Part shown: positions 7,016 to 60,341 of the stretch, in pieces | How the letters are laid out: every line of letters starts with the position of its first letter | Numbering within the stretch: position 1 is the stretch's first letter | From: Xanthomonas sp. 10-10 | GTDB taxonomy: Bacteria > Pseudomonadota > Gammaproteobacteria > Xanthomonadales > Xanthomonadaceae | DNA: 64,000 nucleotides | Reading direction: 5' to 3' | NCBI RefSeq assembly: GCF_040182365.1 | Contig: NZ_CP144460.1 | Coordinates: 2,852,001 to 2,916,000, forward strand | The notes under the pieces: model-generated | Seen by the model: the letters and a program-made list of their open reading frames with translations, nothing else | Told to the model about the DNA's origin: nothing | Database searches by the model: none | Made by a program: the position numbers and the translations under genes

Positions 7016-7951
7016 TCAGTGCGGCACCTTGTAGGTTTTCTCGCCGGCCGTAACCGCCAGGTCGATCCGGTTTTCCGGCGGCGGCAACGGGCAGGTTGCA
7101 AAGGGGGTAAACGCGCAGGGCGGGTTGTAGGCGCGATTGAAGTCCACCACGACATGACCGGACGCATCCGGCACGTCCAGATCCAGGAAGCGCCCGGCCG
7201 GATAGCTGCCGTGCCCACTGGTGCGGTCGGCGAACACGACGAACGCCGGCCGCCCGGGTTCGCCGATCGTCTCCAGGCGATAGGTCTTGCCGTCGCGCTC
7301 GAATTCGACGGCACCGGCATTGGATTGCTCGCTGCTGATGCCGACGATGTCCACGATCGGAATGGTCTTGCCGACATCGTTGGGGACGTAGCGCGCGTCG
7401 ATGCGCCAGGAGGGATCTGTCGGCCAGTACTCCAGCCCGGCGAACTGGCTGCGCGATGGCGCGTCGGCATGCTTGACCCGCAGTGCGTATCGGTCGCCGC
7501 GATGGATCAGGCTGAGCACGCCCTTGCCATCGTCGAAATGGATCAACGTGGGCTGCGGGTCGCGATCGGACTGGAAGCGGATCCTGCTAGCCAGCGGCTT
7601 GCCACCCACGGTAAGCGCGGCGCCACGTTCGGGCACGAACCACACCGCCCCGCCCTCGCTGGACACCATGCCCATCTTCGGCGACCCGACCGCAAGCCGG
7701 ATGCCGCTATCGGCGCTACTGCCGATGTAATGCGCCTTCAGCGACAGCCAATGCAGACCGACCAGGCTGGTCCAGCCATCGGGGGCGCGCAGTTCGTTGA
7801 TCCGGCTTTCGCGCCAGGCGGCATTGTCGGCCAGAAATGTCTTGTCCAAGGCAACCGGTGCGGCCGGTGGCGGCGCATCGCGCCCACATCCGGCCAGCGT
7901 CGCTACCACCAGCATGCCGAGCAGCCAGCCCTTCCCCATGTGCACCGCCAT
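7016..7951 (-). CDS. DUF1684 lipoprotein
   Basis: A 311-aa predicted lipoprotein: the lipobox LAGC ends at Cys22 after a hydrophobic segment. The rest is a DUF1684 domain, seen in the FNRAYNPPCAF.PFATCPLPPPENRI block near the C-terminus. The biochemical role is unknown. The ATG at 7951 shares one base with the mutL stop (TGATG) and has CAGGGGGCGG just upstream, so translation is likely coupled to mutL. Longer starts would lie inside mutL. Confidence 0.85.
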   Translation of the reverse strand: MAVHMGKGWLLGMLVVATLAGCGRDAPPPAAPVALDKTFLADNAAWRESRINELRAPDGWTSLVGLHWLSLKAHYIGSSADSGIRLAVGSPKMGMVSSEGGAVWFVPERGAALTVGGKPLASRIRFQSDRDPQPTLIHFDDGKGVLSLIHRGDRYALRVKHADAPSRSQFAGLEYWPTDPSWRIDARYVPNDVGKTIPIVDIVGISSEQSNAGAVEFERDGKTYRLETIGEPGRPAFVVFADRTSGHGSYPAGRFLDLDVPDASGHVVVDFNRAYNPPCAFTPFATCPLPPPENRIDLAVTAGEKTYKVPH

Positions 7952-9822
7952 CACCGCCCCCTGAGAAACCAACGATCGATATCGCTCAGCGTAAACCGAG
8001 CCCAGGTGGGTCGGCCATGATTGCACTGACCCGAGCGCTCGGTGGCTTCCATATCGCGCAGCAAGGCGTTCATTTCCGGCACGGTGAGGCGACGGTTGGC
8101 GCGCACCGCGCCGTGGCAGGCCATGGTCGACAGCAGTTCGTCGCGCGCGCTGGCGATGCGGCGGCTCTGGCCGTGCTCGCGCAGGTCGCCAAGCACATCG
8201 CGCAGCAACGCCTCCGGCTCGGCATTGGCCAGCAAGGCCGGAATACTGCGGACGTGCAGCGATTGCGGGCCGGCGCGGGTGATCTCGAAGCCCAGGCTCG
8301 CCAGCGTCTCGGCTTCGCGTTCGGCGGTGTCGGCCTCGCGCTCACCCACTGCCAGCGTCATCGGCACCAGCAACGGCTGCGCATGCAGGCCGATGCTGTC
8401 GTGGGCGTTCTTGAGCCGCTCGTAGCCGATGCGTTCGTGCGCGGCATGCATGTCCACCACGATCAGGCCTTCGGCGTTCTCGGCCAGGATGTAGATGCCG
8501 TGCAATTGCGCCACCGCATAGCCCAGTGGCGGCACGCCGCTGTCTTCGGCCGTCGCTGGCAAACCGTCCCCGGAAAACTGCGGCACGCTGGCGGACTGCT
8601 GCGCATGGCCCGACGACGGCGCATACAACGCGCTATAGGCTGCGCGCGCTTCGTCCACACGCAGGCCCAATGGCGTCTGCGAGGGCGTCCAGTTGGCGTA
8701 GCTGCCCGAGCCGCCGCCACTGCCGGATGCGCCGGCATGGGTTGCGGAACCGCCGCCAACGAGGTTGCCCATTCCGCCAGCAGCCGCGTAGCCGGCGCCA
8801 TCGCTGCCGATGCTGTTGGGCGTGGCGCCGGCGCGCGTCTGTGCCAGCGCATCCTGCAAGGTGCGATAGACGAAGTCGTGAATCAGCCGCGCTTCGCGGA
8901 AACGCACCTCGTGCTTGGCCGGGTGCACGTTGACGTCCACGCGCGCCGGGTCCAGCTCGAGAAACAGCACGTACGCAGGCTGGCGGCCATGGAACAGCAC
9001 GTCGCCGTAGGCCATCTTGACCGCATGCGCCACGCTGCGATCGCGCACCGAGCGGCCGTTGACGTAGAGATATTGCTGGTCGGTACTGGCCCGCGAGTAA
9101 TGCGGTTGCGCGACCCAGCCATGCAGCCGCAGGCCGGCGCCGCTGTGATCCACACGCAAGGCCTGCCGCGCGAAGTCCTCGCCCAAGGTTTCGCCCAGCC
9201 GCGCATCCGAATACAGATCGCCTGGCTTGTAGCGGCGCGACGGTTTGCCGTTGTGCGCCACGCGCAATTCCACATCCGGGCGCGCCAATGCCAACGAGCG
9301 CAGCCACTCTTCGATATGCCCGAGCTCGGTACGCTCGGCACGCAGAAACTTGCGCCGTGCCGGCACGTTGAAGAACAACTCGCGCACTTCCACCGTGGTA
9401 CCGGGCGCATGCGCGTGCGGTGTCACCTCGCCAAGCCGCCCGCCTTCGATCTGCAGCGCCGAGCCGTGTTCGGCATCGTGCCGGCGCGAGATCAGCGTAA
9501 AGCGGCTGACCGAGGCGATCGAAGGCAAGGCTTCGCCGCGGAAGCCGAGCGTGGCGACGGTTTCCAGATCGTCCAGCGAGGCGATCTTGCTGGTGGCATG
9601 CCGCGATACCGCCAACGGCAGCTCATCGGGCGTAATGCCACCGCCGTTGTCGCGGATGCGGATCAGGCGCACGCCCCCCTCTTCCAGATCGATGTCCACG
9701 CGGGTGGCACCGGCATCGAGGGCGTTTTCGACCAGTTCCTTGACCACCGACGCGGGACGCTCGACGACCTCGCCGGCAGCGATCTGGTTGATCAGGATCT
9801 CGGGCAACTGACGGATCGCCAT
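7951..9822 (-). CDS. mutL: DNA mismatch repair protein MutL
   Basis: A 623-aa GHKL ATPase that couples MutS mismatch recognition to strand incision. The N-terminal ATPase motifs are intact: [11 protein letters not shown] (29-39), DNGGGI and GFRGEAL. A Gly/Ser/Ala-rich linker (about 350-410) leads to the C-terminal dimerisation domain. That domain contains DMHAAHE....E near residue 457, matching the DQHA(X)2E(X)4E endonuclease motif of MutL proteins from bacteria that lack MutH. It lies in the conserved nnr-tsaE-amidase-mutL order, 138 bp after amiC. Confidence 0.96.
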
Positions 9823-40234: not shown

Positions 40235-41704
40235 ATGCCCGGGACATCCGTTTCCGATCTGTCTGCGGCCACCGCCGTGGGCGCCCCTGCCCTGCTGCCG
40301 TTGCCGGTCGCCCGCCCGGCGGCGCCTGCCGTGGTGCGCGGCAAGCTGTACATCAAGACCCACGGTTGCCAGATGAACGAGTACGATTCGGCCAAGATGG
40401 CCGACGTGCTTGCCGCCTCCGAAGGGTTGGAGCTGACCGACAACCCCGAAGACGCCGACGTGGTGCTGGTCAACACCTGCTCCATCCGCGAAAAGGCGCA
40501 GGAAAAGGTGTTCAGCCAACTGGGGCGCTGGCGCTTGCTCAAGGAAAGCCGGGCCAAGGCCGGCGGCACGCCGGTGATCATCGGCGTGGGTGGCTGCGTG
40601 GCTTCGCAGGAAGGCGAGGCCATCGTCAAGCGTGCGCCGTATGTGGATCTGGTGTTCGGGCCGCAAACCCTGCATCGCCTGCCGGAACTGATCCGTGCAC
40701 GGCGCCAGTCCGGCAAGTCGCAGGTGGATATCAGCTTCCCGGAAATCGAGAAGTTCGATCGCCTGCCCGAACCGCGCGCCGATGGTCCATCTGCCTTCGT
40801 GTCGATCATGGAAGGCTGCTCCAAGTACTGCTCGTTCTGCGTGGTGCCCTACACGCGCGGCGAAGAAGTCAGCCGCCCGTTCGAGGATGTGCTGGTGGAA
40901 GTGGCGCAACTGGCAGCGCAAGGCGTGCGCGAGATCAACCTGCTGGGCCAGAACGTCAACGCGTATCGCGGTGCGTATGGCGCCGATGCGGGTGAAGCGC
41001 CGCAGTACGCCGATCTGGGCCTGTTGATCCGCACCATCGCGCAGATCGAGGGCATCGGCCGCATTCGCTTCACTACCTCGCATCCGCTGGAATTTTCCGA
41101 TTCGCTGGTGGATGCGTATCGCGATGTGCCACAGCTGGCCAACTATCTGCATCTGCCGGTGCAGGCCGGCAGCGACCGCATCCTGTCGGCGATGAAGCGT
41201 GGCTACACCGCGCTGGAATTCAAGTCCAAGATCCGCAAGTTGCGCGCGGTGCGTCCGGATATCTCGATCAGCTCGGACTTCATCGTCGGCTTTCCCGGCG
41301 AGACCGAAGCGGATTTCGAAAAGACCATGAAACTGATCGAAGACGTCGGTTTTGACCAGAGCTTTTCGTTCGTGTATTCGCGTCGCCCCGGCACGCCGGC
41401 CGCGGATCTGGAAGACGACACGCCCGAGGCGGTCAAGCAGGCGCGCCTGGCCCGCTTGCAGGCGCATATCAGCGCACATGCGGCGACCATTTCGCAGTCC
41501 ATGGTGGGCAGCGTGCAGCGGGTGCTGGTGGAAGGCCCGTCGCGCCGCGACCCGAACGAACTGACCGGCAAGAGCGAGAACATGCGCCCGGTGAACTTCC
41601 CCGGCAGCCCGCGCCTGATCGGGCAGTTTGTGGATGTACTGATCACCGAGGCGATGAGCAACTCGCTGCGGGGCCGCATCCAGCTGGACGACAGCACCAG
41701 CTGA
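40235..41704 (+). CDS. miaB: tRNA-2-methylthio-N6-dimethylallyladenosine synthase
   Basis: A 489-aa radical-SAM methylthiotransferase that adds the 2-methylthio group to i6A37 of tRNAs. The N-terminal cluster cysteines are C45, C82 and C121; the radical-SAM cysteines are C195, C199 and C202 in [12 protein letters not shown]-terminal TRAM domain covers about 415-485. The 36-residue N-terminal extension rich in Ala and Pro is longer than in E. coli. A hairpin follows the stop. Confidence 0.95.
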
Positions 41705-41729: not shown

Positions 41730-42106
41730 TGCATTGAAGATGCGATCGCAGCGCACCTACGTCGTGCCTGCGCTGCAGGCGTGATGCCTCGTGCGCAACG
41801 GTTGAACGTTGCATGCAGGCTGCTCGGAGTAGTGCGTGCCTGCGCCGCGCTGTGCGACCCATGCATTGACACGCGTTGCGCCCGCGTCGATGCAACCCGG
41901 TGCACTCGCTGCCTACGGTGACTGGTGGTCGATGCACGCGGGAGTGCAGCCGTGTTGCCGCAGAACAGCAAGGCCCCGCCCCACGTATCCGACGCTGCCT
42001 GTGCAGCGACTGCATCGTGTGGCCAGGAGCGCATGGCCTGGTTGCGGCAGTGATCAAAAATTCACCACACAGGTTCAACACCTTGCAGCGCAAGGCGTGG
42101 TGACAC

Positions 42107-42266
42107 TTACCCACAGGCTTTGCCGAATTCGATCCACACCGCGTGTGGACAACCCTGCGCGCAGTGGCGACTTTTTCACCACTCACCCATCAGACCTTAT
42201 GCCAGTAGGGCTGACGCAATCTATCCACAGGTTAGTGATGCGTGACTCCACAGCGCTTGTGGAAAA
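42107..42266. promoter_or_regulatory. Cluster of four DnaA-box-like sites upstream of phoH
   Basis: Within the 677-bp miaB-phoH spacer, which otherwise shows no gene, four 9-mers each differ by one base from TTATCCACA: TTACCCACA (42107-42115, plus), TGTGGACAA (42144-42152, minus), CTATCCACA (42221-42229, plus) and TGTGGAAAA (42258-42266, minus). A perfect palindrome CCACAC-CGC-GTGTGG (42134-42148) overlaps the second, and TCCACA-GCGCT-TGTGGA the fourth. Binding is inferred. Confidence 0.5.
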
Positions 42267-42381
42267 GCTGCTCGCCCCGTATCGACCACGCCGCGACGCC
42301 CGGCATGTTGGTGGGATCACATCCTGCGCGCTACCCTCACCTGCCGCCCTACCGACGCTGCGCGCGCTGTCCGATCCGACC

Positions 42382-43368
42382 ATGAACTCACCTGCCTCCC
42401 GCGATTTCACCCTGGAACCCGACGACACCGAGCGCCTGGCCAATCTGGCCGGCCCGTTCGACGCGCACCTGCGCCAGATCGAACTCAAGCTTGGCGTGGA
42501 GATCGCCAACCGCGGCAATATCTTCCGCATCACCGGGCCGGAGCCGGCGATCACCGCCGCGCAGACGCTGTTGACCGCGTTGTACGACGAAGCCGCCTCC
42601 ACCACCTTCGATAACCACGCGATCCACCTGCGCCTGAACGATGCCAATGTCGAGCATGTGGTCGATCGTTCCTATGTGGCACAGGACGTGGCGATCAAGG
42701 TCAAGCGCGGCACCGTGCGTGGCCGTGGCGCCAACCAGGCCAAGTACCTGCACGCGATCACCACCCACGACATCAATTTCGGCATCGGCCCGGCCGGCAC
42801 CGGCAAGACCTTCCTGGCGGTGGCCAGCGCGGTGGAAGCCTTGAACGAATCGCGCGTGCAACGGCTGATCCTGGTGCGCCCGGCAGTGGAAGCCGGCGAA
42901 AAGCTCGGCTTCCTGCCCGGCGACCTCAGCCAGAAGGTGGACCCCTACCTGCGCCCGCTGTACGACGCGCTATACGAAATGCTGGGCGTGGAAAAGGTGA
43001 TCAAGCTGCTGGAGCGCAACGTGATCGAGATCGCACCGCTGGCGTATATGCGCGGCCGCACGCTGAACGATGCGTACGTGATCCTGGACGAGGCGCAGAA
43101 CACCACCATCGAACAGATGAAGATGTTCCTGACCCGGCTAGGCTTCGGCTCCACCGCAGTGGTCACCGGCGACCTGACCCAGATCGACCTGCCCAAGCAC
43201 GTCAAATCCGGCCTGCGCGATGCGATCGAGGTGCTGCGTGACGTGGAAGGCGCCAGCTTCACCTTCTTCGAAGCGCGCGACGTGGTACGCCACCCGCTGG
43301 TGCAACGCATCGTCACTGCTTATGAAAAGCGCGATCTGGCCGAAAAGCCTGTCGAACCTGCGGCATGA
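42382..43368 (+). CDS. phoH: PhoH-family ATPase (YbeZ)
   Basis: A 328-aa P-loop protein. An N-terminal KH-like segment (about 15-75) is followed by the PhoH ATPase domain with Walker A GPAGTGKT (136-143), VRPAVEAGEKLGFLPGD and the Walker B DEAQNTT. In E. coli YbeZ works with the endoribonuclease YbeY in rRNA maturation and stress. Here ybeY lies downstream but is separated from it by a secreted-protein gene. ATG 42382 is chosen because upstream codons run into the DnaA-box region and lack similarity. Confidence 0.94.
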   Translation: MNSPASRDFTLEPDDTERLANLAGPFDAHLRQIELKLGVEIANRGNIFRITGPEPAITAAQTLLTALYDEAASTTFDNHAIHLRLNDANVEHVVDRSYVAQDVAIKVKRGTVRGRGANQAKYLHAITTHDINFGIGPAGTGKTFLAVASAVEALNESRVQRLILVRPAVEAGEKLGFLPGDLSQKVDPYLRPLYDALYEMLGVEKVIKLLERNVIEIAPLAYMRGRTLNDAYVILDEAQNTTIEQMKMFLTRLGFGSTAVVTGDLTQIDLPKHVKSGLRDAIEVLRDVEGASFTFFEARDVVRHPLVQRIVTAYEKRDLAEKPVEPAA

Positions 43369-44496: not shown

Positions 44497-44982
44497 ATGA
44501 CCAAAGGCCCCATCCGCCTCGACGTCGCCGTCAGTTACGCGTTGCCGCGCGCCGGCCTGCCGTCGGCGGTAAGTTTTCGCAAGTGGGTGGCTGCGGCGCT
44601 GAAGGGGCGCATCCGCGAAGCCGACCTGGCAGTGCGCGTGGTCGACGAGAAGGAAGGCTGCTCGCTCAATCATCATTACCGCGGCAAGGATTACGCCACC
44701 AATGTGCTGAGCTTCCCGGCCGAACTGCCCGAAGGCTTGCCCAAGGGCATTAAGATGCCGCTGCTAGGCGATCTGGTGATCTGTGCGCCGGTGGTGGCGC
44801 GCGAGGCGGCCGAACAGGGCAAATCGCTGGCGTCGCATTACGCGCATCTGACCGTGCACGGCACCTTGCACCTGCTGGGCTGGGACCACGAAGACGACAA
44901 GGAGGCCGATGCCATGGAGCAACTGGAGCGGGAGATCCTGGCCGATCTAGGCATCGACGACCCGTATGCGGGGGAGCGCTGA
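44497..44982 (+). CDS. ybeY: Endoribonuclease YbeY (16S rRNA maturation)
   Basis: A 161-aa zinc-dependent RNase. The metal site is complete: H121, H125 and H131 in [11 protein letters not shown]. The Asp-rich DKEAD segment after it and the [17 protein letters not shown] block are typical. It acts in 16S rRNA 3'-end maturation and ribosome quality control. Its stop shares one base with the next gene's ATG (TGATG). Confidence 0.95.
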
Positions 44983-45500
44983 TGCGCGCGTTGCTGGCCA
45001 TGAGCGTCCTGCTGCTGAGCCCGTCGGCGGCTGTTGCCCAGACCGCGCCGGTGCGTCCGGACCTGCCGGCGCTGATCGAATGCCGCCAGCGCATCGGCGA
45101 CTTCAATGCCCTGGCGCCGGTGCTGGCCGACCCGCTCAAGGCGGTCGCGCTGGGCTGGACGCCGCTGGATCAGTCCAACCTGTTCATGACCGAATACACG
45201 CTCAACACGCCGATCAGCGTGTTCGGCCACAGCACCACGCATATCGCGTTTTCCGGCGCCAGCATCATGGCGCTGCTGGACCTGCCCGACCCGCGCCCGC
45301 TGGCCAAACAGCTGAACCTGGAGCTGGGCGTGGATAACGCCGACAAGGTGATGTACGGCCGCGAGCTGGTCAGCGAAGACACCACCAACCCGAAAACCGG
45401 CGAGGCGATGATCGAATCGGTCGTGCTCAGCGTGACCAACGTCAAATCGCATCCGGGCAAGACCGTGGTCGGCTGCGGCTATAGCCTGGACCTGCCCTGA
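44982..45500 (+). CDS. Exported hypothetical protein coupled to ybeY
   Basis: A 172-aa protein with a signal peptide (cut after AVAQ, about residue 20) and a compact mature domain with two cysteines (about 34 and 167) that could form a disulfide joining its ends. I do not recognise the family. The ATG overlaps the ybeY stop, so it is translated with ybeY. corC follows 96 bp later. A periplasmic protein tied to ybeY and corC suggests envelope or ribosome-stress adaptation, by position only. Confidence 0.8.
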   Translation: MRALLAMSVLLLSPSAAVAQTAPVRPDLPALIECRQRIGDFNALAPVLADPLKAVALGWTPLDQSNLFMTEYTLNTPISVFGHSTTHIAFSGASIMALLDLPDPRPLAKQLNLELGVDNADKVMYGRELVSEDTTNPKTGEAMIESVVLSVTNVKSHPGKTVVGCGYSLDLP

Positions 45501-45596
45501 CACCCCGGCGCCCGGCAGCGGATCCACAGCGCCTTGCCGGCTTCCTGCTAGACTGCAGCCTAACGCCTGGTTTGCCGGGTGCCGTTCCCCGTCACG

Positions 45597-46475
45597 ATGT
45601 CCGAAGACGACAGTAGCCATACCTCAGAACCCTCCGAAAAACGCCGCAGCTGGCTCGAACGCCTGAGCGCGGCCTTCTCCGGCGAACCCCACACCCGCGA
45701 CGAACTGGTCGCGCTGCTGCGGACTGCCGAGCAAGACGGTCTCATCGCCGCCGACACCTTGCGCATGATGGAAGGCGCGATTTCCGTGTCAGAGCTCACC
45801 GTGGGCGACGTGATGATTTCACGCTCGCAAATGGTCTCGCTGCCGGTGGAAGCGCGCTTCATCGACCTGATGAAGCAGGTGGTCGAATCCGGCCATTCGC
45901 GCTTCCCGGTGCACGGCGAGAACAAGGACGAAGTGCTCGGCATCCTGCTGGCCAAGGACCTGTTGCGCGGCGTGGTCGCCGACAACGGGCCCGGCAACGT
46001 GCGCGAGCTGCTGCGCCCGGCGGTGCTGATCCCCGAGTCCAAGAAGCTCAACGTGCTGCTCAAGGAATTTCGCCTGTCGCGCAACCACATGGCGATCGTG
46101 GTGGACGAGTACGGCGGCGTCGCCGGCCTGGTCACCATCGAAGACGTGCTGGAGCAGATCGTCGGCCAGATCGACGACGAGCACGACGATGCCGAAGAAG
46201 AAAATTCGCTGATCGCGATCCAGGCCGATGGCCGCTACGTGGTCGATGCGCTGACGCCGATCGAGGACTTCAACGAGCGCTTCGGCGCCGAGTTCCCGGA
46301 CGACGAGTACGACACCGTCGGTGGTTTGGTCACCGATGCGATCGGGCACCTGCCGGAGACCGGTGAAGAGCTGACCCTGGGCCGGTTTGCGTTCCGCGTG
46401 GCCAAGGCCGACGCGCGCCGCGTGCACGCCTTCCACGTCACCATCCTGCCGCCCGACCCGCAGGACGACGCTTGA
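45597..46475 (+). CDS. corC: CorC/HlyC-family transporter-associated protein (CBS domains)
   Basis: A 292-aa cytoplasmic protein of the CorC family without the membrane DUF21 part. A CBS pair (about 70-185) with VMISRSQMVSLPV and MAIVVDEYGGVAGLVTIED leads into a CorC_HlyC domain (about 205-285, DTVGGLV...GHLPETGEEL). Linked in E. coli to Mg/Co efflux and cell-envelope robustness. ATG 45597 (MSEDD) is chosen; a GTG six codons earlier is possible. Its stop overlaps the TTG start of the next gene. A corA gene is two genes downstream. Confidence 0.93.
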   Translation: MSEDDSSHTSEPSEKRRSWLERLSAAFSGEPHTRDELVALLRTAEQDGLIAADTLRMMEGAISVSELTVGDVMISRSQMVSLPVEARFIDLMKQVVESGHSRFPVHGENKDEVLGILLAKDLLRGVVADNGPGNVRELLRPAVLIPESKKLNVLLKEFRLSRNHMAIVVDEYGGVAGLVTIEDVLEQIVGQIDDEHDDAEEENSLIAIQADGRYVVDALTPIEDFNERFGAEFPDDEYDTVGGLVTDAIGHLPETGEELTLGRFAFRVAKADARRVHAFHVTILPPDPQDDA

Positions 46476-47737
46476 ACCTCGCACGCCGTTCCGCCACGGT
46501 GCGCTACCGCCGTGGTGCCTGGCAATGGGTCGCGTGCTGGGCGCTGCTCCTGCTGACACTGCTGGTGGCACCGCTTGCCTCGGCGCAGGCTCTGCCCACT
46601 GCTGTGCCGACCAGCGCACCGCCACCACGCGTCGGCGTGGTCACCATGCAACCGGGCGAGGTGTTCTTCGAACGCTTCGGGCATGACGCCATCGTGGTAG
46701 TCGACCCGCTCACCCAGCAGGCCACCTCGTACAACTTCGGCTTCTTCGACCCGAGCGAACCGGACTTCGTGCCGCGCTTTGCGCGTGGCGAAATGATGTA
46801 CTACCTGGTGGCGCTGCCGCTGCAAGAAGACCTGTCGCAGTACCGCAACGTTGGCAGGGGCGTCAGCATCCAGTGGCTGGATCTGCCGCCGGAGCAGGCG
46901 CGCGCGCTTGCCGATGGGTTGGCGGTCCGCAGCCGGCCGGAAAACGCCCGGTATCACTACGATTATTTCGAAGCCAACTGCGCCACCATGGTGCGCGACA
47001 CCCTGGACCGTGCGATGGGCGGCGCGCTCAAGTCGCAACTGGCCGGGCGCTCGCGCGGCAATACCTTCCGCAGCGAAGCGGTGCGCCTGGCCTCCCCTGC
47101 CCCGTGGATGTGGCTGGGCTTCGACCTGGGGCTGGGGCCGTATGCCGATCGCCCCTTGTCGCGCTGGGAAGAAGCCTTCGTGCCGATGCGCTTGGCCGAC
47201 AGCCTGACCCAGGTGCACAACAGCGCCGGCCGCCCCTTGGTGCAAGCCACGCAGGTGCTGCTGCCGCATCGCATCGCGCCGGAGCCTGCCGAACAACAGC
47301 GCCATTGGTGGCCGTGGTTGTTGACCGGGCTGATCGTTGCCGCCGGCATGCTGGCGCTGCGCCGCAAACCCCGATTACTGGCCGGCCTTGCGCTGCCATT
47401 CTGGCTACTGTGCGCCATCGGCGGCAGCTTGCTGGTGTATCTGTGGGGCTTCACAGCGCATCAGTCCGCATGGGCCAATCGCAATCTGTTGCTGGTCAAT
47501 CCGCTGTGCGCGTTGCTGTTGATCGGCAGCCTGCAGTCGCTGCGTGGTCTCCGGCCCGGACGCTGGTTCGATGGGCTGCGCTGGGTGGTGGCTGCCGGGG
47601 CTTTGCTGGCTCTGGTCATTCACTGGCTCTCATTCCAGGCGCAGGACAACCTGCAATGGGTGATGCTGCTGTTGCCGATCCATGTCGCGCTCGCGATCGC
47701 TCTGCAGCCGCGCGACTTGTCGCTGCGTACGCGCTGA
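46472..47737 (+). CDS. DUF4105/Lnb-like membrane protein at the lnt position
   Basis: A 421-aa protein. After a signal or anchor helix (about 17-39) comes a periplasmic DUF4105 (Lnb N-terminal) domain with His71 in ERFGHDAIVVVD and Cys170 in YDYFEANCATMVRD, the His-then-Cys order of permuted NlpC/P60-like thiol enzymes. Five membrane helices follow (about 272-290, 297-320, 332-350, 358-378, 386-405) with the conserved-looking ANRNLLLVNPL. This is the full layout of Lnb, a lipoprotein N-acyltransferase described in Bacteroides. It starts at a TTG overlapping the corC stop (TTGA), so translation is coupled. Family and layout are seen; acyltransferase activity is inferred. Confidence 0.82.
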   Translation: MNLARRSATVRYRRGAWQWVACWALLLLTLLVAPLASAQALPTAVPTSAPPPRVGVVTMQPGEVFFERFGHDAIVVVDPLTQQATSYNFGFFDPSEPDFVPRFARGEMMYYLVALPLQEDLSQYRNVGRGVSIQWLDLPPEQARALADGLAVRSRPENARYHYDYFEANCATMVRDTLDRAMGGALKSQLAGRSRGNTFRSEAVRLASPAPWMWLGFDLGLGPYADRPLSRWEEAFVPMRLADSLTQVHNSAGRPLVQATQVLLPHRIAPEPAEQQRHWWPWLLTGLIVAAGMLALRRKPRLLAGLALPFWLLCAIGGSLLVYLWGFTAHQSAWANRNLLLVNPLCALLLIGSLQSLRGLRPGRWFDGLRWVVAAGALLALVIHWLSFQAQDNLQWVMLLLPIHVALAIALQPRDLSLRTR

Positions 47738-47751
47738 TCCAGGATGCGCCC

Positions 47752-48753
47752 ATGAACAATCACGGTCGCCATCCAGACAACCCGTCCTGCGTCATCACCT
47801 GCGCCTACTACGACGGCGACGGCAAGCGGCACGACATCAGCCTGGAGCAGATCAGCGATGTGCTGCAGCGCCCGGACGGCTTCGTCTGGGTTGGCTTGTA
47901 CGAGCCGCAGGAGTCGGTGCTGCACAAGCTGCAGGAGGAATTCGGCCTGCACGACCTGGCCATCGAGGATGCGCTCAAGGCGCATCAACGCCCCAAGGCC
48001 GAGAGCTACGGCAATTCGTTGTTCGTGGTGGTCAACACCGCGCAACTGGTCAACGAACGCATCCGCTACGGCGAAACGCATGCGTTTCTGGGCGCACGCT
48101 TTTTGCTCACCGTGCGCCACGGCGCGTCGCTGTCTTACACGCCGGTGCGGCACCGGGTCGAACGCGAACCGGCGATGCTGCGCATGGGCGCGTCGTTCTG
48201 CCTGTACGGCGTGCTGGACTTTGTGGTCGACAACTATCTGCCGATCATGGACGAGTTCCGCGACACGCTGGAAGGCCTGGAAAAAGACATCTTTGCCGAC
48301 AATTACAAGCGCGAAACCGTGGTGCGCCTGTATGAGCTCAAGCGCGAACTCAACAAGATGCGCCTGGTGGTCGCCCCGCTGCAGGACGTGTTGTCGCACC
48401 TCAAGCGCAATCCGGGCTCGCTGATCCATGACGAGGTCGGCATCTACCTGCGCGACGTGCTCGATCACGCCGTGCGCATCAACGATGCCATCGATACCTT
48501 GCGCGAGATGCTGGGCACCGCCTTGAGCGTCAACCTGTCGATGGTGACGCTGGCACAGGGCGAAACCGTCAAGCGCCTGGGCGCCTGGGCCGCCCTGCTC
48601 GCCGCGCCCACGCTCATCACCAGCTGGTACGGGATGAATTTCACCCACATGCCCGAACTGGACAAGCCCTACGCCTACCCGTTGCTGGTAGGCGGTGTGG
48701 TGGCCTCGTGTCTGGTGCTGTATCGACTGTTCAAGCGGGCGCGGTGGCTTTAG
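47752..48753 (+). CDS. corA: Magnesium/cobalt transporter CorA
   Basis: A 333-aa transporter subunit that forms a pentameric channel. A large cytoplasmic N-terminal domain (about 1-265) with a long coiled helix leads to two C-terminal membrane helices; the selectivity motif YGMNF lies between them. The tail KRARWL is basic as usual. The ATG is 14 bp after the Lnb-like gene, so the two are probably co-transcribed with corC. A hairpin beginning at the stop codon follows. Confidence 0.95.
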   Translation: MNNHGRHPDNPSCVITCAYYDGDGKRHDISLEQISDVLQRPDGFVWVGLYEPQESVLHKLQEEFGLHDLAIEDALKAHQRPKAESYGNSLFVVVNTAQLVNERIRYGETHAFLGARFLLTVRHGASLSYTPVRHRVEREPAMLRMGASFCLYGVLDFVVDNYLPIMDEFRDTLEGLEKDIFADNYKRETVVRLYELKRELNKMRLVVAPLQDVLSHLKRNPGSLIHDEVGIYLRDVLDHAVRINDAIDTLREMLGTALSVNLSMVTLAQGETVKRLGAWAALLAAPTLITSWYGMNFTHMPELDKPYAYPLLVGGVVASCLVLYRLFKRARWL

Positions 48754-54626: not shown

Positions 54627-56117
54627 TCAACGCGTCTGCTCCGGCGCCTGGCTCCAACCCAGGCCCAGGCTCTTCTGTAGCGCGACATAATTGACCAGCA
54701 GCTGCACCTGCGCCTGCGCGGCGGCGTCCTGCGCGGACAGTTGCTGGCGCTGTACGTCGAGCAGATCGATCGACGACGTCGCTCCGGCATCGCGCCGTTG
54801 TTGCATCAGCCCGGCCGAGCGCGTGGCCGACGCTTCGGCCTGGCGTGCGACCACCAGTTGCTTGCGCGCCGAGCCGAAACGCGACAGCGCGGAGTTGGCG
54901 TCCTGCAACGCCGCCAGCACCGCACCCTCGTAAGCCGCCTCGCGGCCGGCGTTGCCGGCACGCGCCTGCTCCACCTGCGCGCGGGTCTTGCCGAAATCGA
55001 AGATCGACCAACGCAGCATCGGCACCGCCAGCGTGGTCAACGCGTCGGAGTTGAAGTCGCTGGGCGAGCCGGCGACCCAGCTCAGGCCGCCCAGCAAGGT
55101 CACCTGCGGGAAATAGCCATTCAACGCCTCGCCGATCTGCGCGCTGGACGCCGCCAGCTCGCGCTCGGCCTTGCGCACATCGGGGCGGCGGCGGATCAAC
55201 GCGCCGGCATCGTCCACGCGCACGTCGGTGGGCAACATCGGCAGCGGCCGCACCGCAGCCAGTTGCGCGTCCAGCGCACCCGGCTCGCGGCCGACCATCA
55301 AGGCGAGCTGGTCCAGCGCTTCCTGCAACTGCATGTCCAGCGGCAGGCGCTGGGCTTGCTGCTGCTGCACCTGGGTGGCGATCTGGTCGACCTGCAGGTC
55401 CGAGGCCGCACCGCGCTCGCGGCGCTGCCGGGTCAGCGCCAGCGATTGGCCGATCTTGTCCAGGTTGGCATCGGCAATGGCCAGCCGTGCCTGCAGCCCG
55501 CGGTAGTTCAGATACACCTGCCCCACTTCGGCAGCCAGTTGCACCTGCGCATCGGCCAGCTCGGCTTCGGAGGCCTGCGCTTGCGCCAGCGCACCTTCGG
55601 CGGCACGACGGCGGCGGCCAAAGAAGTCCAGCTCCCAGCTGGCATCGAAGCCGGCGCTGTAGATCTGGGTCTTGTCCAGATCCAGCGCCTCGCTGCCCTG
55701 TGCCGGTGGCTGGCCGTTCTCACCGTTCTGCAAGCCGCCCAACGTGTCGACGATGGTCTGCGGCGGCTCGGCATACGCATACACCGCGCTCGCGTTGAGC
55801 TTGGGCAGACGCTCTGCACGGCGCTGGCTGGCCAGTGCACGGTTGGCGCGCAGCCGTGCCTGCGCCGCACGCAGGTTGGGACTGTCGGCCAGGGCCTGGG
55901 TCACCAGCTGGGTAAGCTGCGCATCGTTGAGCTGCTCCCACCAGTGATTCAACGGAGCGGCGGCAACCACGTCGGCGCCACCGGCGCGATGCAATGCGGG
56001 CGCCTGAATCGCCGCATCGGCCACGGGCGGTGCCTTGGTGTAGTTGGGGCCGAGCATGCAGCCGCCGAGCAACACGGCGCTCAACGCCGCCGCCAGCGGC
56101 ATGCGGACCAGGCGCAT
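54627..56117 (-). CDS. Outer-membrane efflux lipoprotein (NodT/OprM family)
   Basis: A 496-aa TolC-like outer-membrane factor. A lipoprotein signal ends at Cys20 (LGGC). Two outer-membrane efflux repeats follow (about 65-270 and 280-480) with the long helices of the periplasmic barrel. It opens the outer membrane for the EmrA-EmrB pump. ATG 56117 is five bases past the emrB stop; the frame extends to a TTG inside emrB, which is less likely. Last gene of emrA-emrB-omf. Confidence 0.92.
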   Translation of the reverse strand: MRLVRMPLAAALSAVLLGGCMLGPNYTKAPPVADAAIQAPALHRAGGADVVAAAPLNHWWEQLNDAQLTQLVTQALADSPNLRAAQARLRANRALASQRRAERLPKLNASAVYAYAEPPQTIVDTLGGLQNGENGQPPAQGSEALDLDKTQIYSAGFDASWELDFFGRRRRAAEGALAQAQASEAELADAQVQLAAEVGQVYLNYRGLQARLAIADANLDKIGQSLALTRQRRERGAASDLQVDQIATQVQQQQAQRLPLDMQLQEALDQLALMVGREPGALDAQLAAVRPLPMLPTDVRVDDAGALIRRRPDVRKAERELAASSAQIGEALNGYFPQVTLLGGLSWVAGSPSDFNSDALTTLAVPMLRWSIFDFGKTRAQVEQARAGNAGREAAYEGAVLAALQDANSALSRFGSARKQLVVARQAEASATRSAGLMQQRRDAGATSSIDLLDVQRQQLSAQDAAAQAQVQLLVNYVALQKSLGLGWSQAPEQTR

Positions 56118-56121
56118 GGAA

Positions 56122-57708
56122 TCAGTGCATTGCAAGGTGCGCCCCCTTGGGTAACGGCTTGAGCAAAAAGGCCAGCGGAATCGTGCAGACCACGATCACG
56201 CCGAAGATCCAGAACAGGTCGCTATAGGTCATCACCAGCGCCTGCTGCTGCACCAGGCGCGCCAGCTGCGCAACCGAGCGGATGGCCGCCTCGCCGCCGG
56301 CGCTGCCCTGCATCTGCGCGGTCAGGCCGGACAGAAACTCCTGCGCGCGTGTCGCATTGGCGGTGATCGCGCTGCCGATGGTTTCGGTGTGGAAGGTCAT
56401 GCGGCGCTCCTGGAAGGTGGAGATCAGCGCAAGCCCCACCGAGCCGCCCAGGTTGCGGCCGGCGTTGAACAGGCCTGACGCATCGCCGGCCAGCTCCGGC
56501 GGTACCGAAGAGATGGCCGCCTGGTTCAGCGACATCATCGCCAGCGCCAGGCCGCAGCCCTGCAGCAACTGCCCGGCGACAAAATGCGTGCCGACGGTGT
56601 CGGCGGTCAGCGACAGGTTGACGAAACAGGCCGCGGCAAAACAGATCAGCCCGGCGATCACCAGGATGCGTACGTCCACCACCTCCAGCAGCTTGGGCAT
56701 CATCGGCATCAGCAGCACGGTCGGCAGGCCCGACAGCAGCAGCACATAGCCGGCCTGCTCGGTGTTGTAGCCGGAGATCACCGCCAGGAACTGCGGAATC
56801 ATGTACATGACGCCGAACAGGATCATGCCCACTGCCATGATCATGATGAACACTGCGCCGAAACTGCGGTGCAGCAGCAGCGACAGGTGAATCACCGGCG
56901 GCCGCTTGCGGAACTGGCCGATCACCAGGGCGATGAAGCCGCTCAAGGCGATCACGCTCAGCATGTTGATCTCGCTGGATTCGAACCAGCGCTCACGCTG
57001 GCCTTCTTCCAGCACCACGGTAAGCCCGCCCAGGCCGGCGGTCAGGCCGTAGATGCCCAGCCAGTCCGCATTGAGCAGGCCGGCCCAGTCGCCTTTTTCA
57101 TGCTTCAGGCCGAGCAGCAGCAAGGCCACCAGGCCCACGCAGATCGGCACGTTGATGAAGAACGCGTAGTGCCAGCTGACGTTCTCGGTGAGCCAGCCGC
57201 CGAGCAGCGGGCCGATCACCGGGCCCATGATCACGGTCATGCCGAACAAGGCCGTGCCCATGGTCTGCTGGCTCGGCGGCAGCCGGGTCGCAACGATGGT
57301 CAGCGCGGTGGGAATCAGCGCGCCACCGGCCAGGCCCTGCCCCACGCGGCCGATGATCATCATCGTCAACGAGGTCGACAGCCCGCACACCACCGAAAAC
57401 GCGGTGAACATCACCGCGCAGATCAGCAGGAAGTTGCGCAGGCCCAGCGTGCGCACGAACCAGCCGGTCAGCGGGATCATGATGATCTCGGCGACCAGGT
57501 AAGCGGTGGAGATCCAGGTGCCTTCGGTACCGCTGGCGCCGACCTCGCCCTGGATGGTGGGCAGCGCCGCGTTGACGATGGAGATATCCAGCGTCGCCAT
57601 GAACGAGCCGATGGTGCCGGCCAGCACCGCCAGCCAGGCGCCCGGCTCGGCCTTTTCGCTGGCAGCGCTGCCGCCGGCGCTCTGGCCGGTGGCTGCCGCT
57701 GCACTCAC
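56122..57708 (-). CDS. emrB: MFS multidrug efflux permease EmrB (DHA2)
   Basis: A 528-aa DHA2-family drug:proton antiporter with 14 predicted helices. The first-helix ATLDISIVNAALPTI and the following motif GPVIGPLLGGWL (motif C of antiporters) are typical. It pairs with EmrA and an outer-membrane factor to export hydrophobic compounds or organic acids to the outside. The GTG start overlaps the emrA stop (GTGA), so it is translated with emrA. Confidence 0.94.
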   Translation of the reverse strand: MSAAAATGQSAGGSAASEKAEPGAWLAVLAGTIGSFMATLDISIVNAALPTIQGEVGASGTEGTWISTAYLVAEIIMIPLTGWFVRTLGLRNFLLICAVMFTAFSVVCGLSTSLTMMIIGRVGQGLAGGALIPTALTIVATRLPPSQQTMGTALFGMTVIMGPVIGPLLGGWLTENVSWHYAFFINVPICVGLVALLLLGLKHEKGDWAGLLNADWLGIYGLTAGLGGLTVVLEEGQRERWFESSEINMLSVIALSGFIALVIGQFRKRPPVIHLSLLLHRSFGAVFIMIMAVGMILFGVMYMIPQFLAVISGYNTEQAGYVLLLSGLPTVLLMPMMPKLLEVVDVRILVIAGLICFAAACFVNLSLTADTVGTHFVAGQLLQGCGLALAMMSLNQAAISSVPPELAGDASGLFNAGRNLGGSVGLALISTFQERRMTFHTETIGSAITANATRAQEFLSGLTAQMQGSAGGEAAIRSVAQLARLVQQQALVMTYSDLFWIFGVIVVCTIPLAFLLKPLPKGAHLAMH

Positions 57709-59225: not shown

Positions 59226-60341
59226 TCAACGGCCGGTCTTGATCTCGGTCCACAGCCGCGTGTACAGGCGATCGACGTCCGGCGAATTGATCGCATAGGT
59301 GAACATCTTGGCGGTCACCTCCGGCGGCGGGTAGATGGTGGGGTCGTTGCGGATCGCCGCATCCACCAGCGGCGTGGCGGTGCGCACCGGGTTGGCGTAG
59401 TGGATGAAGTTGCTGTTGGCCGCGGCCACCTCCGGCTTCAGCAGGTAATTGATGAAGGCGTAGGCGTTGTCAGGATGCTTGGCATCCTTGGGGATGGCCA
59501 GCATGTCGAACCATTGCGGCGCGCCTTCCTTCGGAATGGCGTAGGCCACATTGACGTTGTTGCCGGCCTCCTTGGCACGGTCGCGCGCCTGGATGATGTC
59601 GCCCGACCACCCCACCGCCAGGCAGGTATTGCCGTTGGCCAACGAGGTGACGTATTGGCTGGAGTGGAAGTTCTGCACGTACGGGCGGATGGTCTTGATC
59701 AGCGCCGCGGCTTTCTCGATCTCGGCCGGCACGCTGCTGTGCGGGTCCAGGCCCAGGTAGTTCAGCGCGATCGGGATCATGTCCGAGGGCGTGTCCAGAA
59801 TGGTCACACCGCAATCCTTCAGCCTGGACAGATTCTCTGGCTTGAACACCAGATCCCAGCTGTTGGCGACATCGGTGCTGCCGAAGATCGCCTTGAGCTT
59901 GTCGACGTTGTAGCCGATGCCGGTGGTGCCGATCATGTACGGCACGCCATAGGCATTGTTGGGGTCCTGTGCGGCGATGCGGCGCATCACGTCAGGATCC
60001 AGATTGGCCAGATTCGGGATCTTGCTTTTGTCCAATGGCAGGAACACACCGGCCTGGATCTGCCGGCCGAAGAAGTTGAGCGTGGGCACCACCACGTCGT
60101 AATCGCTGCCACCGGCCAGCAACTTGGTTTCCACCATCTCGTCGCTATCGAACACGTCGTAGGTGACCTTGATGCCGGTGCTCTTTTCGAACGCGGGGAT
60201 GGTGTCTTCTGCGATGTAGTCGGAGTAGTTGTAGACGTTGAGCACCTTGGCCTGCGCCTCGGCCTTGCCCGGGGCGCCACCGCCGCCGCAGCCGGAGAAC
60301 AGGGTGATGGACAGGGTCAGTGCGAGCAGTCGCAGCGTCAT
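59226..60341 (-). CDS. potF: Putrescine-binding lipoprotein PotF
   Basis: A 371-aa extracytoplasmic solute-binding protein (type 2 periplasmic fold). A lipoprotein signal ends at Cys18 (FSGC) rather than a plain signal peptide as in E. coli PotF. Polyamine-family segments include LNVYNYSDYIAEDTIPAFEK, GTTGIGYNVDK, and YAIPKEGAPQWFDMLAIPK. It delivers putrescine or spermidine to PotA-PotH-PotI, whose genes are 5 kb downstream. ATG 60341 begins the signal; the longer frame upstream is spurious. Confidence 0.93.
   Translation of the reverse strand: MTLRLLALTLSITLFSGCGGGGAPGKAEAQAKVLNVYNYSDYIAEDTIPAFEKSTGIKVTYDVFDSDEMVETKLLAGGSDYDVVVPTLNFFGRQIQAGVFLPLDKSKIPNLANLDPDVMRRIAAQDPNNAYGVPYMIGTTGIGYNVDKLKAIFGSTDVANSWDLVFKPENLSRLKDCGVTILDTPSDMIPIALNYLGLDPHSSVPAEIEKAAALIKTIRPYVQNFHSSQYVTSLANGNTCLAVGWSGDIIQARDRAKEAGNNVNVAYAIPKEGAPQWFDMLAIPKDAKHPDNAYAFINYLLKPEVAAANSNFIHYANPVRTATPLVDAAIRNDPTIYPPPEVTAKMFTYAINSPDVDRLYTRLWTEIKTGR

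Follow-up and report, generated by a model that had tools for sequence, protein, structure and literature searches.

An Lnb-type (DUF4105) protein in the place of lnt after corC: a probable lipoprotein N-acyltransferase of Xanthomonas and most of its order

The lnb-like gene and its product

The window analysed here is a stretch of 64,000 nt from Xanthomonas sp. 10-10 (contig NZ_CP144460.1, positions 2,852,001 to 2,916,000), and the gene in question is an lnb-like open reading frame (ORF) at 46472..47737 on the forward strand, which encodes a protein of 421 amino acids from a presumptive TTG start. It lies directly 3' of corC (ybeX; 45579..46475, +), identified by its CBS and CorC_HlyC Pfam domains, and its TTG overlaps the corC stop, as a preliminary description of the window, made from the sequence alone, had stated; the overlap is 4 nt long. 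In Escherichia coli, the corresponding miaB-phoH-ybeY-corC block terminates in lnt, the gene for the usual enzyme that attaches a third fatty chain to lipoproteins. According to ORF, Pfam and structural model the product combines an Lnb_N (DUF4105) domain with a five-helix membrane domain. Pfam places Lnb_N (PF13387) at residues 56-184 (46637..47023, +; 53.1 bits against a cut-off of 22.2) and 5TMH_Lnb (PF25221) at residues 282-409 (47315..47698, +; 29.0 bits against a cut-off of 25.2). The NCBI Lnb equivalog model NF051878 matched residues 50-351 (147.8 bits, E 3.8e-43), and BLASTP aligned the protein with the Bacteroides finegoldii member at 30% identity over 301 residues (1e-39). No LNT_N or CN-hydrolase domain was matched by Pfam up to E 1, and a PHROGs search gave no match up to E 0.01.

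The AlphaFold model (predicted local distance difference test score of 91) has a helix at residues 12-35, followed by an alpha/beta domain and C-terminal helices at 280-298, 300-327, 337-340 plus 346-357 (interrupted at the NPL motif), 364-386 and 394-410, the last five of which we read as membrane helices; both these five helices and the motif ANRNLLLVNPL had been noticed beforehand. Over about residues 48-267 the model resembles permuted NlpC/P60 thiol enzymes. A sequence search of solved structures returned no relative (best E 0.03, within a run of beta-lactamases; profile E 0.74).

The DUF4105-type histidine and cysteine singled out in the preliminary description are present as FGH71 and NC170. 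These residues, a presumed catalytic base (His71, codon 46682..46684, +) and a presumed nucleophile (Cys170, codon 46979..46981, +), are joined by His330 (47459..47461, +), which the model places between membrane helices 2 and 3, and by Asn336 (47477..47479, +) within ANRNLLLVNPL. An alignment of 29 order members, drawn from 32 extracted ones with the window protein included, has 36 invariant columns, among them His71, Asn169, Cys170, His330, Asn336 and Pro344. The same six residues are invariant in all rows of a 13-row alignment that includes three Bacteroidota (Bacteroides finegoldii, Parabacteroides and Hymenobacter) and three Gemmatimonadota, which bears out the expectation that the His/Cys pair and the membrane Asn/Pro are those of Lnb. 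A larger alignment of 118 rows comprised the window protein, 31 order loci, 80 named loci (the best of at least 548 confirmed relatives), three Bacteroidota and three further order loci, some of them near-copies; here His71, Asn169, Cys170, His330 and Asn336 were present in 118/118 rows and Pro344 in 117/118. The His/Cys pair and the membrane His/Asn/Pro are thus common to Bacteroidota Lnb members, which supply only three of the rows.

The gene is under purifying selection. Among six compared Xanthomonas loci, the closest being those of Xanthomonas sp. 3793 (99% amino acid identity) and X. pisi (97%), the ratio of nonsynonymous to synonymous substitution rates (dN/dS, from residue 47 on) was 0.07-0.13 in five comparisons and 0.46 against the sixth, a nearly identical locus with very few changes; two more distant loci gave 0.25 and 0.30.

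Lipoprotein maturation genes in the genome

The genome is a single contig of 5.17 Mb. Following the suggestion that lnt be sought elsewhere in it, we found none: the best TIGR00546 score, 36.4 bits (cut-off 132.9), came from a 321-amino-acid frame, too short for Lnt, and the LNT_N profile had no match in this genome. The positive controls, E. coli and a further six named genomes, passed the LNT_N/TIGR00546 cut-offs. Three Lnb_N proteins are encoded, and the full Lnb model was matched by that of the window only. One of the other two, of 345 amino acids (L001:1123-2160; genome 1163394-1164428), has a hydrophobic N-terminal part and no 5TMH domain; the other, of 713 amino acids (L002:514-2655; genome around 2337464), combines DUF7844 with Lnb_N.

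The preliminary description had counted at least six predicted lipoproteins in the window, a number that our scan did not confirm. A strict lipobox pattern of our own, simple and likely stricter than usual predictors, gave five ORFs, three of which we judged convincing; these predicted lipoproteins and possible substrates are all encoded on the reverse strand (7016-7954, 54627-56135 and 59226-60341).

Distribution of Lnb and Lnt

The Lnb model matched in 117 of the 121 genomes of the GTDB order (Xanthomonadales), two of these being weak cases (a 21.5-bit fragment in G052 and 49 bits in a short frame in G092). Three of the four genomes without a match (G006, G017 and G019) hold the three highest TIGR00546 scores of the order (298-305 bits, canonical Lnt), with lnt directly after an order-type corC in G006 and G017; the fourth (G045) is a draft, 80% complete, whose contig ends 116 nt past the corC match. 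In G019 (locus L010) lnt follows a distant CorC-like gene and was possibly acquired from elsewhere. TIGR00546 exceeded its cut-off in 18/121 order genomes and LNT_N matched in 24/121; Lnb was matched in 102 of the 103 order genomes that have no Lnt-family gene over the cut-off. Among 18 other genomes of the same family, TIGR00546 had no match at E<=1e-15.

Strict mutual exclusion of the two enzymes is ruled out by 15 order genomes that have an Lnt-family gene over the cut-off and also match Lnb, G052 among them with no more than its 21.5-bit fragment. Their Lnt relatives are divergent (147-204 bits) and lie in frames of 822-1079 amino acids in 13 cases, of 515 in G050 and of 434, at a contig end, in G094. 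The active-site cysteine motif is CLDD in the seven long relatives inspected (L011-L017), with one CLDA, and CFDA in G050 and CYDA in G094; the three canonical Lnt proteins of the order have CYE. No corC match was found within 1.5 kb of the seven inspected long relatives. The divergent Lnt-family proteins found beside Lnb (L011-L017, L108, L224 and others) are perhaps a different acyltransferase. Separately, CKD-type LNT_N proteins (L105-L107, L109, L110 and L112; five from family f12 and one from f3) score 87-100 bits, under the TIGR00546 cut-off.

Beyond the order, a draw of 274 genomes of the class contained 271 from outside the family. LNT_N was matched in 249 of these 271 and full-length Lnb in none, 19 of them having partial matches of 18-31 bits. 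In a draw of 349 genomes of the phylum, full-length Lnb was found in eight, all from the order itself, and 15 others had partial matches of 18-28 bits. The best 80 of at least 548 named loci are mostly from Lysobacterales, together with 11 Gemmatimonadota and two Nevskiaceae-labelled metagenome-assembled genomes (MAGs). LNT_N was detected in three of the 19 Lnb genomes of this set that were tested, all three being Gemmatimonadota MAGs.

The position after corC

On the forward strand of the window, the gene order is a miaB-type gene (40235..41704; UPF0004, Radical_SAM and TRAM domains), phoH/ybeZ (41836..43368, presumptive start; PF02562), a 354-amino-acid ORF, ybeY (44497..44982; PF02130), a 172-amino-acid ORF (44982-45500), corC, the lnb-like gene and corA (47752..48753; PF01544, start chosen by us). 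The 172-amino-acid ORF between ybeY and corC starts with a signal-like stretch and matches no Pfam family at E<=0.001.

The preliminary description had proposed comparing the gene after corC across relatives, and the comparison is consistent with its reading of the locus. Of the 30 best-scoring loci of the order, 28 have corC immediately before Lnb, the exceptions being L046, with little upstream sequence, and L035, with no corC match. Among the best 80 named loci, corC is found at most 380 nt upstream of the Lnb match in 68; the remaining 12 are L159 and 11 Gemmatimonadota, three of which have only a short upstream sequence. Outside the order, 20 class loci were hand-picked from the top-scoring lnt matches listed, and in 16 of them lnt has corC at most 170 nt upstream. 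A single position is thus occupied by one or the other of two unrelated enzymes. The f6 genomes have lnt in this slot, which they may have kept or regained.

A tree of 55 Lnb rows (34 of the 80 named loci, 18 order loci and three Bacteroidota) united the Gemmatimonadota (99/96) and the Bacteroidota (100/100); no donor lineage for Lnb was found in it, and its deep proteobacterial branches are unresolved. The two Nevskiaceae-labelled MAGs (L118 and L176) have corC followed by Lnb and no LNT_N match, and their CorC does not clearly group with that of the order. A second in-place swap in these two, hinted at by a first CorC tree of 56 rows, was not retained: the approximately unbiased test, run after two long-branch rows had been dropped, does not reject a single clade (p 0.091).

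Discussion

We consider it highly probable that the gene codes for an Lnb-kind N-acyltransferase of lipoproteins, situated in the inner membrane, and that in the greater part of this order it has taken over from lnt at the very site after corC. The basis is the protein's family, its residues, the predicted fold, the absence of a detectable lnt, the gene position, the distribution and purifying selection. Because an Lnb-type enzyme occupies the slot of lnt, bacteria of the order probably N-acylate their lipoproteins. Of the two roles offered in the preliminary description, a second or a replacement N-acyltransferase, replacement fits this genome, where no lnt was found, and a second enzyme does not; the activity itself we infer from sequence.

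The proposed reaction, acyl donor, residue roles and triacylated products come from sequence and model. In the periplasmic permuted NlpC/P60-like domain, with His71 acting as base and Cys170 as nucleophile, an acyl chain of a membrane phospholipid would be taken up as a cysteine thioester. The acceptor would be the S-diacylglyceryl cysteine that Lgt and Lsp produce, acylated at its free alpha-amino group. The membrane domain of five helices, which includes the invariant His330 and Asn336, may tether the catalytic part to the membrane and help to bind the donor or acceptor lipid.

Several observations weigh against this interpretation. A Foldseek search with the model found nothing at E<=0.001, its best hit having an E of 0.029. 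The window protein's 147.8 bits also fall well under the NF051878 equivalog cut-off of 550. That cut-off is tight: B. finegoldii scores 667, but the Parabacteroides (398) and Hymenobacter (220) proteins, two of the three Bacteroidota DUF4105 proteins tested, fail it too, and the best score in the 121 order genomes is 208 bits, none reaching 550. Because the cut-off is not attained, we file the protein by sequence in the Lnb (DUF4105) family, outside the equivalog. On the side of distribution, exclusion is incomplete: Lnb is matched in 15 of the 18 order genomes whose Lnt-family gene exceeds the cut-off, and LNT_N in 3 of the 11 Lnb-bearing Gemmatimonadota MAGs. Moreover, 22 of the 271 class genomes, some of them incomplete, have neither LNT_N nor full-length Lnb, so that lacking both enzymes seems possible. 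Lnt and Lnb have changed places in few evolutionary events, and genome counts therefore overstate independence. Finally, one LolC/E-family protein exceeds the cut-off in the genome (469 bits), which is the LolF arrangement. That arrangement can serve bacteria without N-acylation; it does not tell whether the anchors are diacyl or triacyl.

It is rather unlikely that the lipoproteins are diacylated and that the DUF4105 protein has another envelope role, such as phospholipid deacylation or turnover or the acylation of another amine. This would agree with the single LolF-type protein, with the lipid-cleaving enzymes among the fold relatives of the model and with PMC10368991 (2023), a structural paper in which diacyl anchors were modelled for X. 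campestris B100 because no Lnt was found there. Such a role would leave unexplained why the gene occupies the slot of lnt, why the only order genomes that lack it are the three with canonical Lnt and one draft, and why the protein is Lnb-like across both domains, the membrane residues being invariant too.

Two further alternatives seem to us very improbable. If N-acylation were carried out by one of the other two Lnb_N proteins, the corC-linked protein would be an accessory; both do outscore it on PF13387 in the genome search (166.6 and 99.5 bits vs 55.5), but neither yields an NF051878 match up to E 1 or shows a 5TMH_Lnb domain. The 345-amino-acid type (E<=1e-10) is patchy, occurring in 8 of the 271 class genomes outside the family and in all eight alongside LNT_N, and is therefore unlike a stand-in for Lnt. 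Partial Lnb matches in frames of 612-845 amino acids, the size range of the 713-amino-acid protein, were found in 19 class genomes, 18 of them with LNT_N; these frames were grouped by size, DUF7844 not being checked in them. Equally doubtful is a highly divergent, unrecognized Lnt that persists in the genome with Lnb as a second enzyme. The divergent Lnt-family genes that 15 of the 121 order genomes carry over the cut-off beside Lnb lend it some colour, but TIGR00546 gives at most 36.4 bits in the window's genome and finds nothing at E<=1e-15 in the 18 other genomes of the family, and the LNT_N profile that fails here does find E. coli and the great majority of the class genomes (249/271).

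Replacement of Lnt by Lnb thus being the preferred explanation, the two-chain (diacyl) lipoproteins assumed for Xanthomonas and its relatives are probably not present. We think it likely, if somewhat less firmly than the replacement itself, that in most of the order the third maturation step is performed by a non-homologous, Lnb-kind enzyme swapped for Lnt in the same operon slot, the two being interchangeable parts, perhaps in both directions, and that the literature errs in assuming diacyl anchors for Xanthomonas. The order, to which Xanthomonas, Stenotrophomonas, Lysobacter and Rhodanobacter belong, would thereby gain a candidate for its missing lipoprotein N-acyltransferase, and the locus would be a natural example of an operon slot in which one enzyme has been exchanged for an unrelated one. 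N-acylation state bears on models of Lol transport and on recognition of lipoproteins by TLR2, and His71, Cys170, His330 and Asn336 are named residues for mutation.

The Lnb kind is already known. That it apparently serves most of a proteobacterial order as N-acyltransferase, and that this conflicts with the assumed diacyl anchors, was not found in the literature; no publication linking DUF4105 or Lnb to Xanthomonas or its order turned up in a search that covered mostly titles and the beginnings of abstracts and did not extend to the original PNAS paper on Lnb. Fig. 4B of PMC12994826 presents three contexts of Lnt/DUF4105 displacement, among which the corC context may already stand, although the main text, in the parts available, names neither Xanthomonas nor corC or ybeX. 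PMC8739992 holds no text on Lnt, and two further papers, in their accessible portions, mention Lnb for Bacteroides or in general only.

Comparison with known systems

Like Bacteroides Lnb (NF051878, PF13387 plus PF25221), the window protein has both domains in the same order (421 vs 390 amino acids), the invariant His/Cys and the membrane His/Asn/Pro, with 30% identity to the B. finegoldii protein over 301 residues; it differs in lying well under the NF051878 cut-off, in coming from a different phylum and in its genomic setting, the gene following corC, whereas Lnb in two Bacteroidales loci is followed downstream by an alkaline-phosphatase-family gene and secA. With the permuted NlpC/P60 proteins TseH, YiiX and LRAT/HRASLS-TIG3 it shares the predicted fold over about residues 48-267 and a histidine that precedes the cysteine, but it adds the five-helix membrane domain, and identity in the structural alignments is 8-13%. 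Lnt is a CN-hydrolase-type enzyme of nitrilase fold. The lnb-like gene occupies the same chromosomal slot after corC as that of Lnt (TIGR00546, PF20154) and would catalyse the same reaction through its product, a protein that is unlike Lnt in having none of its Pfam domains and in resembling, in the model, the permuted NlpC/P60 thiol enzymes.
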